Shown: positions 55,367 to 63,639 of the stretch, one piece after another | Numbering within the stretch: the stretch's first letter is position 1 | Layout of the letters: every line of letters starts with the position of its first letter | Source of the DNA: Polyangiaceae bacterium | GTDB taxonomy: Bacteria > Myxococcota_A > Polyangia > Polyangiales > Polyangiaceae | Direction: 5' to 3' | NCBI GenBank assembly: GCA_025937835.1 | Contig: JAICQO010000027.1 | Span: 1-64,000, forward strand | DNA: 64,000 bases | The notes under the pieces: model-generated | The model's input: the letters and a program-made list of their open reading frames with translations, nothing else | Told to the model about the DNA's origin: nothing | The model's database searches: none | Program-made: the position numbers and the translations under genes

Positions 55367-57163
55367 ATGAAGCGTCGTTTGCGCGTTCCAGCACCGCGCG
55401 ACGCACTCATGACCATGGCACAGCCTGCTGCGCAGAAATCAGCGAACACGGTCCGCAGTCGACGCGGTGACGATCCGGCTCTCGGCAAGGTCATTGCCGG
55501 CCGATACCGGCTCGAGTCCCGCATCGGCGAAGGCGGAATGGGCATCGTCTATCGGGCCCGCCACGTCCTCATCGACCGCGTCGTGGCCGTCAAATTGATC
55601 CGACCGGACCTGCGTGGGGAGACCCATCTGCGGGCGTGGATGCTGCGCGAAGCGCGCGCCGCCAACCGCGTCGATCACGCGCACATCATCGACATCCACG
55701 ACATCGGCGAGACCGACGAGGGGGAGCTCTACCTCGTGATGGAGTACCTGGTCGGTACCCCGCTGTCGTCGGAGCTCGCGCGCGGGCCCCTGCCGCTGGC
55801 TCGCGGCGTCGACGTGCTGGAGCAGATGGGCGCCGCGCTGACCCGCGCGCACGACCTCGGCGTCGTCCACCGCGACTTGAAGAGCGACAACATCCTGCTC
55901 ACCCAGCGCGGCGGTCGCAAAGACTTCGTGAAAATCCTGGACTTCGGGCTGGCTGCGCTCGCGCACGACCCGCGGCTGGCTCCGAAAGGCGCGGTCTTCG
56001 GAACGCCGGAGTACATGTCCCCGGAGCAGGCCCGCGGCGAACAAGCGGGGCCGCACTCGGATCTGTACGCGCTCGGCGTGTTGTTCTTCGAGATGCTGAC
56101 CGGGCAATTGCCGTTCCGCGCGAGCGATCGCGACACCTTGCTCGAGATGCAGCGCACGGCTCAGGCGCCGCGCCCATCGTCGGTGCGCAAGGACTGTCAC
56201 CCGGTCGCCGAGCGCATCGTCCTCAAGCTGCTGGAAAAGGATCCGCGGCGGCGCTACCGAGACGGCCACCATCTGCTCGAAGAGCTGAAGGCGTTGCAGC
56301 GCTCGCTGCCCAGCACGTCGTGGGAAAAAGAGGGAACCTCCGGCGACACCACGCAGCAAGCGCCGCCTCCGCCCCCGCCCCCCAAGACACCGGGCGTCCC
56401 GGAGTGGGGCACGCGCGCGGGTCTGTTCGCGCGCATGGTCTCGCGCGCCTACCCGGCCGCGAACGCGCCGGAAGAGGTGTCGCAGGCGATCAACACGCTG
56501 TGGGAGGTCTCTGCCAAGGGCAACGCGCTCGAGGGCGAGGTCGCGAGCCTCACACGCAAGCTCGAAGCGCTCGAGCGCCGTGGTCGCGCGCTGCGCGCCG
56601 AAATCGGGCGCAAGGTGGAGGAGCTCGCCCAGGAAGAGTCGCGCGTGCTGCGCGAGGCCTCCGCCTACGGCGAGGAGGAAGAGGCAGCCCGCCGCGAGCT
56701 CGCGCAGGCGCAGCAGAGCGCTCAGGACAAGGTGGCGCAGGCCAACCAGGCCGAGCGCAACGGCAGCGGCAGCCGCGCCATCTACGAACAGGCCGGGGCC
56801 GCGAGCGCCATGGTCGACGCGCAGCGCCAGTGGCTGAAAACGCGCGAATCGCGGCGTCTCGCCCGCGAGGCGACCGCAGCGGACCTGCGCCGGCAAATCG
56901 AGGAGCTCCGTGCCCAGCTCGCCCGCTACGCCGAAGCGCTCGAGGAAGATCTCACGAGCGGCCGGGAGAAGGTCGCCGTGCGTTCGCGCGAAGGGTTGAA
57001 GTTCGAGAAGGCGTTCCTCGACTCGTCCCAGGCGCTGACGCGGCATCTGAAGGGCAGGCCCGAGTGTCGCGACCTCATGGCGGAGCTCCTGGCCATGAGC
57101 GGAGCGGAGGCCGAGGCCAACTCGCTGTCCCCCTCCCCGGCTCGTCCGGCGGAAGGTGTGTGA
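55367..57163 (+). CDS. Cytosolic Ser/Thr protein kinase with coiled-coil tail
   Basis: Eukaryotic-type (Hanks) kinase at ~45-320: glycine loop IGEGGMGIVYRA, VAIK-like VAVKLIR, HRDLKSDNILL, DFG, and GTPEYMSPEQARG. After a Pro-rich linker, residues ~355-560 are predicted coiled coil (LRAEIGRKVEELAQEESRVL, LRRQIEELRAQLARYAEALEEDL). There is no transmembrane segment. Such kinases phosphorylate FHA-type partners; this window has an FHA protein but no direct link. The ATG at 55367 is used; 55409 (MTMAQPAAQ) is possible. The Rieske gene start overlaps its stop. Confidence 0.92.
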   Translation: MKRRLRVPAPRDALMTMAQPAAQKSANTVRSRRGDDPALGKVIAGRYRLESRIGEGGMGIVYRARHVLIDRVVAVKLIRPDLRGETHLRAWMLREARAANRVDHAHIIDIHDIGETDEGELYLVMEYLVGTPLSSELARGPLPLARGVDVLEQMGAALTRAHDLGVVHRDLKSDNILLTQRGGRKDFVKILDFGLAALAHDPRLAPKGAVFGTPEYMSPEQARGEQAGPHSDLYALGVLFFEMLTGQLPFRASDRDTLLEMQRTAQAPRPSSVRKDCHPVAERIVLKLLEKDPRRRYRDGHHLLEELKALQRSLPSTSWEKEGTSGDTTQQAPPPPPPPKTPGVPEWGTRAGLFARMVSRAYPAANAPEEVSQAINTLWEVSAKGNALEGEVASLTRKLEALERRGRALRAEIGRKVEELAQEESRVLREASAYGEEEEAARRELAQAQQSAQDKVAQANQAERNGSGSRAIYEQAGAASAMVDAQRQWLKTRESRRLAREATAADLRRQIEELRAQLARYAEALEEDLTSGREKVAVRSREGLKFEKAFLDSSQALTRHLKGRPECRDLMAELLAMSGAEAEANSLSPSPARPAEGV

Positions 57164-57540
57164 GCAGCGTCCGGATCTACGTCCCCGATCTCGACACGTT
57201 GAGCCACGGCGAAGCGCGAGTCTTCCGCTTCCGTCGCCGAGCCCGCGCCGTGGAGGGCTTCGTGTTGCGCGTCGAGGCTGCGCTGGTCGCCTACGCCAAC
57301 GTCTGCCCGCACTGGTCGGTGGACCTCGACATGGGCGTGGGACGCTTCTGGGATCCCGAGAGCCAGCGGATCTTTTGCATGAACCACGCGGCGCTATTCG
57401 ACCCAAGGACGGGCGTGTGCGTGCGCGGCCCGTGCCTCGGCGATTCGCTCGAACCGTTCGAGCTCGAAGCCGAGGGCAGCGGAGCCTGGGTCACGGTGCC
57501 CGACGCTGAGCCAGACCCGGTCTCCGATCCGCGTCCCTAG
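57160..57540 (+). CDS. Rieske [2Fe-2S] protein
   Basis: 126 residues with the Rieske motifs CPH (VCPHWSVDLD) and CxxH (FCMNHAALFDPRTGVC), giving Cys2His2 coordination of the [2Fe-2S] cluster. The short form without a transmembrane helix or catalytic domain suggests a soluble electron-transfer or ring-hydroxylase-type ferredoxin. The GTG at 57160 overlaps the kinase TGA (GTGA), so the two are translated together. A redox link to the kinase is a guess. It overlaps the next gene tail-to-tail by 4 bp. Confidence 0.85.
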   Translation: MSSVRIYVPDLDTLSHGEARVFRFRRRARAVEGFVLRVEAALVAYANVCPHWSVDLDMGVGRFWDPESQRIFCMNHAALFDPRTGVCVRGPCLGDSLEPFELEAEGSGAWVTVPDAEPDPVSDPRP

Positions 57541-58155: not shown

Positions 58156-59382
58156 CTACTGGATCGTTTTGCAGCCGTACACGACGTCGACGCGCTTGGC
58201 GCCGTTGGTCTGGATCTCTTCGCAGAGCGGCCCCGACAGCCGGATCACTGCAGGCGACGCGCCCGTGTCGAGCTCCCAACCCGAACCGTCGTCCTCTTCC
58301 GGACGGATCGGCGTACAATCCACCGCGACGTTCACGAGGCTCGGGGCGGGCGGCTCACGCTCGAGCTCCACCTCGCACGAGCGCACGAGCTGCTCGGTGA
58401 TGTCGCGGAACACACTGGTGAGCCCCTCCACCCCGCCGCTCGCGTCCACCGCGTAGTAAGACGGCGGAGCCTCGGGGTTCGCGACGCCGCCCGCATCGGC
58501 GAAGGCGTCGAGGTACTCGGCGTAGTCCTCGGTGCCCGGTATGCCGACCACGAAGGTGGGGATCCCGGCGTCGCGCAAGGCCTCGATTTCACCGGTTACC
58601 GACTCGTCATCGACGCAGAACTCGCCGTTGCCGTCGCAGCAGTTGGCGAGGCTGCACTGGTTGTCGAGGTTCGCGGTACAGCGATCGGCGTCGCACTCGA
58701 GGTCGTAGTTGCAGTTGGGCCCGCCGTCGGTCGCGAGCACGACGTAGGTATCACCCTCGAGTGTTGCTGCGGTCAGGTACTCGCGAGCCCGGCGCAAGGC
58801 CTCCGCCGTCGGCGTGCCACCCCCGGGCGGCGTATTGCCCAACAAGGAAAGGATCTTGCCGACGCTCTCCGTACCGGGAGCGACCGGAACGTTCACGGCG
58901 GCCTCCCCCACCTCCAAAAGGCAGCAGTTCTTGCCGCAGTTTCGCTCGGGGATCGCGATCTGCCGTGAGTATGGGTAAAGCACCAGCCCGAGGTTCAAGA
59001 TCGGCGCCGCCTCGTTCAGCACCTCGTCCAGGGCCTGCACCAGCGCGTCCCATTTGTTGGCGTCGAAGCCCTCGGGTTCGTCGGTCATGCTGCCGGACTT
59101 GTCGATCACGAGCAGCAGATTCACCGTCTTGAGCTCGGCCCCTAGGGTCATGCCCCCACAGTCGGTCAGACCGGCAAATTCCTCGCATTCGGAAGACGGC
59201 ATACCCGTGTCTCCGGAGCTGCCCGTACGCCCACCCACCGTGACGACGCTGCCCGTACCTCCGGTCGCCGACGGCCTGTCCGTGTTCTGAACCTGGGAGT
59301 CGTCCGCTTCGTCGCTGCAGGCGGAAACCGCTGCAAACGCCGAAATAAGCGCCGACGCTGCGAGCCATTTGCCGAAACGCAT
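58156..59382 (-). CDS. VWA-domain lipoprotein, first of a four-gene array
   Basis: Signal peptide with lipobox VSAC (C22) and Ser/Thr linker. The VWA fold begins near residue 85 with MIDAS DKSGSM and has the later VVLATDGGPNC. The C-terminal ~95 residues share with the other array members a pattern of CEVELE, then ..VDCTPI..GW (WELDTG), then LCEEIQTNGAKRVDVVYGC. ATG at 59382 is chosen; a GTG 6 nt upstream lies closer to an AGAGGAG and is an alternative. Its function as metal-dependent adhesin or receptor is inference. Confidence 0.83.
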   Translation of the reverse strand: MRFGKWLAASALISAFAAVSACSDEADDSQVQNTDRPSATGGTGSVVTVGGRTGSSGDTGMPSSECEEFAGLTDCGGMTLGAELKTVNLLLVIDKSGSMTDEPEGFDANKWDALVQALDEVLNEAAPILNLGLVLYPYSRQIAIPERNCGKNCCLLEVGEAAVNVPVAPGTESVGKILSLLGNTPPGGGTPTAEALRRAREYLTAATLEGDTYVVLATDGGPNCNYDLECDADRCTANLDNQCSLANCCDGNGEFCVDDESVTGEIEALRDAGIPTFVVGIPGTEDYAEYLDAFADAGGVANPEAPPSYYAVDASGGVEGLTSVFRDITEQLVRSCEVELEREPPAPSLVNVAVDCTPIRPEEDDGSGWELDTGASPAVIRLSGPLCEEIQTNGAKRVDVVYGCKTIQ

Positions 59383-59629
59383 TCGCACCAAGCTCCTCTG
59401 ATAATCCGGTTCGTCGCGAACGACGCCGCCCTTGCGAGCGGTGTCGTCACACAAGCTACCGCCTTCGTCAGCTCATCGCAATTTGCCTGATGCATCGAGA
59501 CTCAGACGTATCGTACATGAACCGCCGCCCCCCACAGTCGCGCCGAACTTGCGACCGAGTCCAGCACACGCACACAAATCCTCGGTCATGGATGGGACGT
59601 ACGGGAATTATCTGTCATCGTACTTCGTC

Positions 59630-60883
59630 ATGGTGTTTCGGCGCACGGTACTGGCTTCGGCTCTGGTCTTCGTTACTGGCTGTTCTTCGGACGATGGCTC
59701 GTCTTCTGGCGACGGCGGCGGCCCTCCTCCCGCGCCGACGACGGGCAACACCTCACCGATTGGCAACCCCGGAGCGCCCGGCACTCCCGGCACTCCCGGC
59801 ACTCCCGGCGCTCGCAACGGCGGTACGCAGCCGCTGACTCCGACCCAGGTGAGCCAGATCGAGTCGGGCGCATGCGCGGGCTGGAAAGCCGAGGTCGAGT
59901 CGCTTCCCGCGCTGATTCAGCTGGTAATCGACGTCAGCGGTTCGATGGACGATCGCGCGCCGGGCACCGGCAACCGCAACAAATGGGTCGTGACGCGAGA
60001 CGCGCTCCGAGACGCGATCAGCGGCTTGCCCGCCGAGACCGGCGTCGGCGCGCTCTACTACCCGAACCGAGACACCCAGCGCGCCATGCAGGCGCGCGAC
60101 GTCAGCCAGTGCGTGCGCGTCGAAGACATCATCCCGGTGGGTATCCTCGGCGCCAACGGCGATGCCAAGCGCGAGGAGCTCCTGAGCTCGCTCGGCGAGC
60201 CGAACCCGCGTGGTTCGACGCCGACTCACGACGCTTACAAGTACGCCTTCGACAATGGGTTGAATCCCTCACGGCTGTCGGGTGAGCGCTACATGCTGCT
60301 CATCACCGACGGCGCGCCGACGTTCTCGCAAGGCTGCGTCGGCGACGGCCAGACGCCCGTCGCCACCAATCCGATCATCGAAGAGGTGAAGCGCGCCCAC
60401 GCCGCCGGCGCCAAGACCTTCATCATCGGCTCTCCCGGTAGTGAAGAGAGCATGGACGGCAAGGACGCGCGCCCCTGGCTGTCGAAGGCAGCGATGGAAG
60501 GTGGGACCGCCACCGCAGGCTGCAGCGAAAACGGCCCGGATTTCTGCCATTTCGACATGACCGAGAGCTCGGACTTCGCGGCCGCCCTGAAGGACGGCCT
60601 CGCGCAGATCGCAGGTCAGGTCGTGTCGTGCGCGTACTCTCTGCCGCCGGCTCCCGCGGGCCGCACCATCAGCACCGAGTCGATCAACGTGATCGTGAGC
60701 GGCAGCGGCGGCGACGCCGAGCTCGTGCTGCGCGACGACAACGGCGACTGCAACGAGGGCTGGCAGCTCGTCAACAACCAGGTCGTGCTCTGCGACGCCA
60801 CCTGCAACCGCGCCAAGGAAGACCTGGGCGGCAAGGTCGCGTTGCACTTCGGCTGCGGCTCGAACGTGCTCCCGATCGAGTGA
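59630..60883 (+). CDS. VWA-domain lipoprotein with collagen-like GTP-rich linker, second of array
   Basis: Signal peptide with lipobox VTGC (C18). Residues ~25-60 include GAPGTPGTPGTPGA, a collagen-like triplet run. The VWA domain has MIDAS DVSGSMDD (~100) and LITDGAPTFS. The C-terminal ~85 residues carry the shared CAYSLPPA, GDCNEGWQLVNN, LCDATC, and LHFGC pattern. The ATG at 59630 begins directly with the signal peptide (MVFRRTVLA); 59588 (MDGTYG) is less likely. It is divergent from the first gene and convergent with the third. Confidence 0.83.
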   Translation: MVFRRTVLASALVFVTGCSSDDGSSSGDGGGPPPAPTTGNTSPIGNPGAPGTPGTPGTPGARNGGTQPLTPTQVSQIESGACAGWKAEVESLPALIQLVIDVSGSMDDRAPGTGNRNKWVVTRDALRDAISGLPAETGVGALYYPNRDTQRAMQARDVSQCVRVEDIIPVGILGANGDAKREELLSSLGEPNPRGSTPTHDAYKYAFDNGLNPSRLSGERYMLLITDGAPTFSQGCVGDGQTPVATNPIIEEVKRAHAAGAKTFIIGSPGSEESMDGKDARPWLSKAAMEGGTATAGCSENGPDFCHFDMTESSDFAAALKDGLAQIAGQVVSCAYSLPPAPAGRTISTESINVIVSGSGGDAELVLRDDNGDCNEGWQLVNNQVVLCDATCNRAKEDLGGKVALHFGCGSNVLPIE

Positions 60884-60893
60884 TGCGAGCCGC

Positions 60894-60953
60894 GGGCTCC
60901 GCGCTTCACCGCGGAGCCCGGCTCACCTGAGCTCCGCGCTTCACCGCGGAGCC
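60894..60953. terminator. Two repeated GC hairpins between convergent VWA genes
   Basis: Hairpin 1 (60894-60919) pairs GGGCTCCGCG with CGCGGAGCCC across CTTCAC. Hairpin 2 (60931-60952) repeats the core GCTCCGCG / CGCGGAGC with the same loop; the 23-bp core recurs at a 35-bp spacing. They lie in the 75-bp gap between two convergent stops, so a bidirectional terminator is likely, though no U-tract is seen. The identical loops are unusual and suggest a duplicated element. Confidence 0.6.
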
Positions 60954-60958
60954 CTGGC

Positions 60959-62221
60959 TCAGCGGAGCCCGATGATCGGCTGACAGCCGAGGCGCACGTC
61001 GACGCGACCTGCGCCGAAGCGGGAACAGGTGCAGGGGCACACGTTGATGCGTGTGCTCAGGCCGAGAGCGCTGAAGTACCAGCCGCCGTTCGGCTGGATG
61101 TCGCAGTCGGCGGAGGAGTCGACCCTTGGAATCTCTTCGGGCTCGCCCGAGCTCTCGGGCGTGTAAACGACCTGCACGCGGTCGGGGTCGATTTCGAGGT
61201 CGGGATCGGGCGAATCCGGCACCTCGAAGCTGCAAGCGAGCTGCGCGGAGCTGATGTTGAGCAGGACATCCACGAAGTCTTCGGCGATGTCCGCCGAGTC
61301 GACCACGAACGCCGACTTAGAGCCGCCGGCGCGGGCGATGCCCTCGAGGTTCTGCGTGCCGTCGAGGCCGATCACGTAAGTGCGCACGCTCGGATCGTCC
61401 TCCGCCGCAGCGCGCGCTGCGTCCGCGACCTCGGCGATGCCGCCCGCCTCGCACTGCGTGGGATAGCCGTCGGTGACGAGCACCACCATCGATGCGCGCT
61501 CGGGGTTGTCCCGCGCCCAGTCCTGAGCATGGGCAAGCGCGCCTTCGAGCGCGGGCAGCGTGGGCGTGACGCCGCCGGGGATCGTGTCGTCGATCGCCTG
61601 CAAGATGTCCTCGCCGACCTCGGACAGGAGCCCGATCTCGACCTCGGGGTCCGCGTAGTTGTCGGGGTTGCAGTCGATCTCGTCGTCGCCGTTCTGCGTC
61701 TTGCCGAAGAAGCCGATGCCGGCGCCGATGTCGCCCGCGTCCGGCGAGGCCACGAACGCCTCGACGGCCTCGCGGATCGCCTCCCAGCGCGTGAGGCCGG
61801 TGTCACCGGCGGGCTCGTTCATCGAGATCGAGCGGTCCATCATGATGTAGAGGTCCACCGGCAAGGCCGTGGCCTCCTGCGAGATGCTCTGGCAGACGGA
61901 CGAATCGCCGCCCGAGCCCGCGAGCGGCGCGTCCATCGGCACGCCGGGGCAGCCGGGGCCTTGGTTCGTCGAGCCGCCGCGCGACGAGGCCCCGCCCTGT
62001 CCGGTTGCACCCGTTGCGCCGGAGCCGCCGGTGTTCTGCATCCCGATGAACGTGCCGCCGGTGGGGGCGGCGACCTTGCCGCCAAGCTCGCTGCCGTCAT
62101 CGTCTTCGCTGCAGGCCGCCGCGCCGAACACGGCGCAGAGCGCGAGGGCGGCTCCGCAGGCGAGCCGGCGGCGTGGGCGAAGCGAGCTCCGCGATGCGGG
62201 CGTACTTCTCGGATCGGACAC
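60959..62221 (-). CDS. VWA-domain lipoprotein, third of array
   Basis: Signal peptide with lipobox AAAC (C37), preceded by a Ser/Arg-rich N-region. After a Gly/Ser linker the VWA domain shows MIDAS DRSISM (~120) and VVLVTDGYPTQC. The C-terminal region has ACSFEVPDSP, DCDIQPNGGWYFS, NVCPCTC and VDVRLGC, the same pattern as its neighbours. The GTG at 62221 (MSDPRSTP) is taken because GGAG stands 8 nt before it; upstream in-frame GTG at 62242 is possible. ~420 residues. Confidence 0.82.
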   Translation of the reverse strand: MSDPRSTPASRSSLRPRRRLACGAALALCAVFGAAACSEDDDGSELGGKVAAPTGGTFIGMQNTGGSGATGATGQGGASSRGGSTNQGPGCPGVPMDAPLAGSGGDSSVCQSISQEATALPVDLYIMMDRSISMNEPAGDTGLTRWEAIREAVEAFVASPDAGDIGAGIGFFGKTQNGDDEIDCNPDNYADPEVEIGLLSEVGEDILQAIDDTIPGGVTPTLPALEGALAHAQDWARDNPERASMVVLVTDGYPTQCEAGGIAEVADAARAAAEDDPSVRTYVIGLDGTQNLEGIARAGGSKSAFVVDSADIAEDFVDVLLNISSAQLACSFEVPDSPDPDLEIDPDRVQVVYTPESSGEPEEIPRVDSSADCDIQPNGGWYFSALGLSTRINVCPCTCSRFGAGRVDVRLGCQPIIGLR

Positions 62222-62328
62222 GAACTTCGCTCCGTTGATCACGCGGTTAATCGTACGCTCGAACAGACGGCTCCGCCAAGACCGCAAAGCGGTTCCGTAC
62301 GTGGAGCGGAGCTGCGCCGAAGTGCGAC

Positions 62329-63639
62329 TTATTCGGGGACGAACGCGCCGCAGGGGAACCAGATGTCGACACCCGTCGCACCCTGCTGGATCTGCTGGCA
62401 CGCGCTGCCGTCCACGACCACCTGGCCCTGACCGTTCAAGTGCCAGCCGTTGGGGTCCATGTAGGTGAGGTCCATCCCGTCGATCGTGACGCGACCCATC
62501 GTCGCGGCGTTCAGGTTCACCTTGCCGTTCAGATCGAACACGCAAGCCCGGACGCCGCTGATGATCGTCTCGAACGCGTCGGCGAGCTGCGACGGGTCGT
62601 TCGCGGGGTAGAACCGATTCATCGCGTCCTCGACGGGGAACCCTTGGCCGAGGTTGGCGATGCGCCGAAGGTGCTCTTCCGTCACGTCGCTCCCGACGCT
62701 GATCACGAAGGTCGGGATGCCCGCCTCGTATGCGGCCTGAATCGCCGCTTCCGACGCGCGCCGTCCCTCAGCCCTGGCGTTGTCGTTGCCGCACATGTTG
62801 GGGTCGCCGTCGGTCGCAAGCACCATCACGCGCGGTCCGGGGAAGGTGACCGGATCGAGCGCCTGGATCTTAGGCCAAATTGCGGCGACGCTTTCGCCGG
62901 TCGGGGTGGAACCGAGGGGTTCAGTCGCGGCGTACACCGTCTGGATTCCCGCGAAGTTGTTGAGGGCGATCGGCACCTCGACCAACACCGGGCACGAGGT
63001 GGGCGCGGCGCCGCTCGAACCGCCCGCGCTCGGGCTGCCGCCGAGACCGCCGCCACCGCCATCGCCCCCGCCGCCATTTCTCCCGCCGCGCGGAGGGAAG
63101 AACCCGCCGCCCCCCATTGGCCCGGGGCTGGTGTACATCGTCAGGCCGAACCGCACCTGCGTCTCGAGCATGGGCAGCAAGCCCGTTGCGGGGTCGGTGA
63201 GCGCCGTGCGGACCGTGTCCCAGCGCGATGCCGCGCCAAACTCCTCGTCCATGCTCAGCGAACGATCGACGATCAACATCACGTTCGGCGTCTCTTGCTT
63301 GAACATGACGTTGGCCGAAGCGCAGCCGCCGCCGACACCACCGCCGCCGCCTTGTGGACCCGTGGGGATGTTCGTGACGTTGCCGGTGCCCGTGCCGGGC
63401 GGGGGCGGCGCGCCAGCACCGCCGGAGCCTCCGCCGGCCCCGGTCAGCACGTCCGTGCAGGTGCCGGTGGACCCGCAGACTTGACCCGGGTTGCAATCCT
63501 GGTTGCCCGTGCAGGTCTTGACCTGGGGACCACCCGCGATGGTGACGCCGTTCGAACTGTCGCCGCCGCAGGCCGCAAACAGCCCGGCGATGAGGGCCAG
63601 ACCGCTGACGCCCTGCAGAGCCCTAAAGTTCAGGTTCAT
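62329..63639 (-). CDS. VWA-domain lipoprotein, fourth of array
   Basis: Signal peptide with lipobox FAAC (C24). A Cys-bearing segment (CTGNQDCNPGQVCGSTGTC) and a Gly/Pro linker precede the VWA fold: MIDAS DRSLSMDEE near 120 and VMVLATDGDPNMC. A Gly-rich insertion (~205-240) lies within the domain. The C-terminus follows the shared pattern (ACVFDLN, NGWHLNGQGQ, ACQQIQQGATGVDIWFPC). The ATG at 63639 has GGAGGT 6 nt upstream. The ~107-bp gap to the third gene and same direction suggest cotranscription. Confidence 0.84.
   Translation of the reverse strand: MNLNFRALQGVSGLALIAGLFAACGGDSSNGVTIAGGPQVKTCTGNQDCNPGQVCGSTGTCTDVLTGAGGGSGGAGAPPPPGTGTGNVTNIPTGPQGGGGGVGGGCASANVMFKQETPNVMLIVDRSLSMDEEFGAASRWDTVRTALTDPATGLLPMLETQVRFGLTMYTSPGPMGGGGFFPPRGGRNGGGGDGGGGGLGGSPSAGGSSGAAPTSCPVLVEVPIALNNFAGIQTVYAATEPLGSTPTGESVAAIWPKIQALDPVTFPGPRVMVLATDGDPNMCGNDNARAEGRRASEAAIQAAYEAGIPTFVISVGSDVTEEHLRRIANLGQGFPVEDAMNRFYPANDPSQLADAFETIISGVRACVFDLNGKVNLNAATMGRVTIDGMDLTYMDPNGWHLNGQGQVVVDGSACQQIQQGATGVDIWFPCGAFVPE

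Follow-up and report, generated by a model that had tools for sequence, protein, structure and literature searches.

What kind of protein is encoded by four adjacent lipoprotein genes that combine varied VWA heads with a common Cys-bearing tail, and what is that tail? The genes, here called A to D, occupy positions 58156-63639 of the window (the whole stretch of 64,000 nucleotides analysed) and are listed with their tails in Table 1. The initial annotation of four lipoproteins, three on the minus strand and one on the plus strand, agrees with the coordinates, strands and domains found here. Genes A and B diverge from starts that lie some 250 bases apart, B and C are convergent, and the gene immediately upstream of C is D, which shares its strand. 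No recognised adhesion or motility genes adjoin the array, and promoter and terminator scans of the region returned nothing informative. Also in the window are a Ser/Thr protein kinase gene whose product has a long coiled C-terminal part (55367-57163) and, after it, a Rieske-like ferredoxin ORF (about 57160-57540). Judged from their sequences, A-D are probably lipid-anchored, metal-dependent MIDAS adhesins of the CglB/Bd0875 kind, located at the cell surface.

Table 1. Genes and tail modules of the array (positions refer to the window).
Feature	Position	Strand	Remarks
Gene A, CglB-like VWA lipoprotein	58156..59382	-	408 aa; mature form 17 Cys (1 lipid Cys + 16)
Tail module of A, single-Cys type	58159..58380	-	Tail profile; AF2 model
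Gene B, VWA lipoprotein	59630..60883	+	417 aa
Tail module of B, C-x(3)-C type	60626..60880	+	Tail profile
Gene C, VWA lipoprotein	60959..62242	-	~427 aa, GTG start assumed
Tail module of C, Cys-pair type	60962..61237	-	Tail profile; AF2 model
Gene D, VWA lipoprotein	62329..63639	-	436 aa
Tail module of D, single-Cys type	62332..62547	-	Tail profile

All four proteins are built in the same order: a signal with a lipobox Cys, a low-complexity Gly/Ser/Pro linker, a VWA domain and the tail. The lipoboxes end in AVSAC (A), FVTGC (B), GAAAC (C) and LFAAC (D). The MIDAS reads DKSGS in A, DVSGS in B, DRSIS in C and DRSLS in D, is followed in each case by TPT and TDG motifs, and is intact in almost all of the roughly 70 relatives aligned. 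The Pfam VWA/VWA_2 models match A, C and D above cut-off and B weakly, below it. With that one sub-cut-off match, the lipobox, Gly/Ser linker and VWA domain with intact MIDAS first described for the four proteins are all present. D has two additions: a small Cys motif follows its lipobox, and its VWA region holds a Gly-rich insert. None of the four proteins has a match in PHROGs.

The tail is 72-92 residues long in A-D and bears Cys and GW. Across 11 members from the window's own genome, a Cys, a GW and two further Cys are invariant in the tail alignment. The closing motif is V-x-[VIL]-x-[FYL]-[GP]-C; the extra residue that had been placed before [GP]C is absent. A regular expression (C, GW, C, V-x-hydrophobic-x-aromatic-[GP]-C), written after A-D had been seen, has four matches in the six frames of the window, exactly A-D, and a tail profile detects own-genome tails left out of its building at E-values as low as 3e-15. 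The common tail order holds in all four; the Cys pair that the initial annotation had ascribed to every member is found in B (CDATC) and C (CPCTC) only, A and D having a single Cys at that place, which defines two tail types. L067, on contig C128 of the own genome, carries tandem tails (VWA-tail-tail), and L090, from another genus (contig C152 of genome G112), repeats the whole unit (VWA-tail-VWA-tail), indicating that the tail is a module and goes together with a head as one unit. The tail is without a Pfam model, Pfam gives no credible match in the tail regions of A-D, and a comparison with PDB sequences gave no convincing relative.

Among NCBIfam models, the best non-generic match for A-D is NF033757 (CglB), with E-values of 3.7e-26 for A (92.1 bits), 5.5e-13 for D (48.7 bits), 4.9e-4 for B (19.2 bits) and 7.1e-4 for C (18.7 bits). 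These scores are below the 200-bit cut-off of the model, so we do not class A-D as CglB orthologues; the cut-off is reached in none of 284 sampled genomes of the phylum, where the top score is 101 bits. The highest CglB score in the genome belongs to A, which aligns to model positions 84-282 and 315-388 of 402. Residues 341-420 of D, tail included, align to positions 306-386, and model positions of about 306-390 land on the tails of D, L002, L006 and L008. Nearly all proteins that the CglB model pulls from other genomes carry the tail according to the tail profile. Together, the landing of the model's end on the tails and the tails on its catches identify the tail as the C-terminal part of CglB-like proteins. 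The tail is therefore a separate module that lacks a Pfam model, as proposed at the outset, without being altogether unknown, since it lies within the C-terminal end of NF033757.

CglB, the adventurous gliding motility lipoprotein of Myxococcus, is described as a surface VWA adhesin that is recruited by the Glt complex at focal adhesions (PMC13104615, PMC12288465); its distribution was called very restricted in 2011 (PMC3169522). With CglB of Myxococcus, A-D share the lipoprotein nature, the VWA domain with a DxSxS...T...D MIDAS and a region after the VWA domain that contains the tail. They differ from it in scoring below the cut-off, in having many paralogues per genome and in lacking linkage to gliding genes. 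One could suppose that A-D belong to a gliding-specific set, in which alternative CglB subunits serve one Glt/Agl machine, each on another substrate. The rank of A among the CglB matches agrees with this, as does a Glt-like cluster at C132:7837-30640 of the own genome (L122, L123), which encodes a GltC-like protein (260 bits), a 1272-aa protein, a GltE-like protein (89 bits), a GltG-like protein (325 bits) and a 3820-aa TPR protein, all Glt scores being below the NCBIfam cut-offs. Outside the window's class, a GltC homologue is present in 52 of 55 tail-bearing genomes as against 126 of 219 tail-less ones, a count in which kinship among genomes is ignored. On the other side, GltC/E/G core genes are found in non-gliding bacteria too (PMC3169522), the Glt cluster has no array gene nearby and no array gene adjoins Glt genes, and the number of copies, up to 38 per genome, exceeds the obvious need of a single machine. 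We consider a gliding-specific set unlikely. Coupling of A-D to gliding is possible on this comparison, and A would be the best candidate for loading onto the Glt machine as CglB does. A second GltG-like gene lies at C174:77787-79181 of the own genome, and the GltJ family is represented there by partial matches only.

Exported proteins with disulfide bonds are expected to have an even number of Cys. Of the 67 head-plus-tail proteins aligned, 63 agree with this, a result that has a chance of about 6e-15 if odd and even are taken as equally likely and the rows as independent, which relatives are not. Members with six Cys have them at alignment positions 18, 92 and 167 or 186, plus three in the tail. 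As the head then contributes two Cys and the tail three, C18, just before the VWA domain, would be the natural partner of the third tail Cys. A bond from one tail Cys to a position outside the tail is thus probable, and the universal candidate for that position is C18, which lies on the strand preceding the VWA domain. The AF2 models made for the head-plus-tail parts of A (351 aa, 38-sequence alignment, pLDDT 87.4) and C (328 aa, 29-sequence alignment, pLDDT 87.8) each contain a VWA head preceded by a strand and followed by a beta tail. The two tails, compared by the order of their elements only, are similar: strands, a helix and a last strand.

The heads of both models align to many VWA structures at Z 18-21, and the top fold matches in the PDB include the pilus-tip adhesins PitA, SpaC, Mfa5 and PilB of S. 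sanguinis; SpaC was also found by sequence search. These adhesins have the VWA/MIDAS head fold in common with A-D but sit on pili, whereas A-D are short lipoproteins with another C-terminal part. The fold matches also include BatB (3ibs) and NorD (9qh8). VWA domains also serve complex assembly and metal insertion, which counts against reading A-D as adhesins, and those of the BatA/NorD/CoxE kind act in complex assembly. A-D might accordingly be envelope lipoproteins of another sort, with a VWA domain for complex assembly or a tail that is a secretion or sorting signal. A partner gene recurring at the paralogue loci is absent, however: only generic kinases and regulators recur around the loci in the own genome and around 14 foreign loci. 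The tails of the own genome always adjoin a VWA head, they stand in tandem or internally in L067 and L090, and they hold an odd number of Cys, with pairing apparently to the strand that precedes the VWA domain; none of this would be expected of a pure sorting tail. A non-adhesive role is, on balance, improbable.

The second known system to which A-D can be compared is the pair Bd0875/Bd1483 of Bdellovibrio bacteriovorus, MIDAS-family lipoproteins with a lipobox and disulfides (PMC11003981). The N- and C-terminal parts of the chain together make up their small beta domain, into which the MIDAS domain is inserted; this small domain has a conserved Tyr/Trp, and productive prey entry needs the MIDAS residues of Bd0875 (PMC11003981). 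Going by the published description only, A-D resemble them in the lipobox and the VWA/MIDAS head and probably also in having a small beta domain and disulfides. The tail of A-D fits the small beta domain of that description, and its invariant W fits the conserved Tyr/Trp. By analogy, A-D might be prey-binding adhesins like Bd0875: the order of parts matches the one described for Bd0875/Bd1483 (PMC11003981), myxobacteria are predators, and D and other members have inserts in the head region. Prey binding as the specific role of A-D is nevertheless unlikely, about on a par with the gliding-specific set.

The array is not a product of recent tandem duplication, an origin that we rejected because each member belongs to another clade. 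In a tree of 22 proteins, A falls near L002, D with L008 and L006, B with L066, and C in the Cys-pair clade. The arrangement is kept in the second genome of the genus, G297, one of whose contigs matches QGUH01000438 (MAG ZC4RG46). A single contig there has the tail of C, then B, A and the same kinase gene that stands beside the array in the window; a different contig carries D together with part of C. A, B and D each have a one-to-one counterpart there, and C is seen in part. Separate clades and an arrangement that is kept in the genus indicate that the array consists of old paralogues that were gathered together rather than of a fresh or hypervariable amplification. A scan of genome contigs found no relative with C as query and four loci only with D-type proteins. 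In other genera the B-type gene stands alone at 13 of 14 foreign loci, some of which are cut by contig ends. In a different genus, L128 (contig C240 of genome G402) is another cluster of four tail-bearing genes, with a B-type gene among them.

These comparisons bear on the suggestion, made together with that of a surface adhesin, that A-D are a kin or prey recognition family. A kin or self recognition array, in which the choice of cells that adhere to one another depends on polymorphic heads carried by conserved tails, would accord with the varied heads and the common tail, and polymorphic adhesins such as TraA do serve kin recognition in myxobacteria (PMC12288465). The age of the paralogues and their separate clades argue against such an array. 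The VWA domains of A, B and D are 63-66% identical to their G297 counterparts and the tails 64-67%; rapid evolution is thus not concentrated in the head. These identities fall between those of the kinase neighbour (86%) and of two other neighbours (50%). Single counterparts with head and tail equally conserved are not what a hypervariable array would show. TraA (NF033759) is a myxobacterial envelope protein active in cell-cell contact, the receptor for outer-membrane exchange and kin recognition; its sole match in the own genome is partial, of 30 bits and outside the array, which itself has no resemblance to TraA. Of the original suggestion, the adhesin-like VWA lipoproteins stand and kin recognition is weakened; we regard it as very improbable, the least probable of the readings considered here.

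As for the number of such proteins, the own genome (6.9 Mb in 227 contigs) contains 18 tails in 17 proteins, each tail behind a VWA domain. L011 of the same genome is a further VWA protein, cut by a contig end, and L021 (contig C115) is a VWA lipoprotein without a tail that ends right after the VWA domain. Tails are found in all 41 genomes of the family sample, with 1-38 matches per genome. In the sample of the phylum, the window's class is represented by 105 genomes, of which 100 have at least one tail, as against 55 of 274 outside it. Thus almost every genome sampled from one myxobacterial class has a CglB-like architecture with a definable tail, frequently with at least ten copies. A-D themselves are of a known kind, the MIDAS lipoprotein adhesins of CglB/Bd0875 type; as far as the literature surveyed shows, the scale of the paralogue expansion seems to be new, and so does the tail as a defined module. 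The tail, with its Cys set and GW, offers a handle for naming a Pfam domain and for finding CglB counterparts in distant species.

If A-D are surface adhesins as we propose, the lipidated Cys would anchor each protein in the outer membrane, presumably exposed to the outside, and the flexible Gly/Ser/Pro linker would keep the head away from the membrane. Ligand binding by the VWA head would depend on a divalent metal held at the MIDAS. As the base of the head, the tail would be a small beta domain braced by disulfides, one of them probably to the Cys that is invariant on the strand preceding the VWA domain. The differing heads would probably grip different ligands, such as a substrate, a polysaccharide, or the surface of prey or of a sister cell. 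A-D are one part of a large set of paralogues scattered over the genome. Should these be working adhesins, myxobacteria would have a large repertoire of lipid-anchored MIDAS adhesins whose ligands, among them soil surfaces, polysaccharide, prey and sister cells, could be tested singly. A bolder proposal is that the class carries an interchangeable CglB-like focal-adhesion repertoire, with many MIDAS heads, one disulfide-locked base and one Glt machine. We think it rather doubtful, somewhat more so than a role confined to gliding or to prey; if true, a moving cell could grip different substrates or prey.

A small Cys motif (e.g. CTGNQDCNPGQVCGSTGTC) lies at about residues 40-62 of D and occurs also in L008 and L021 and inside the head region of L069-L071. 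Recurring as it does in linkers and near or within VWA domains, it looks like a mobile mini-module.
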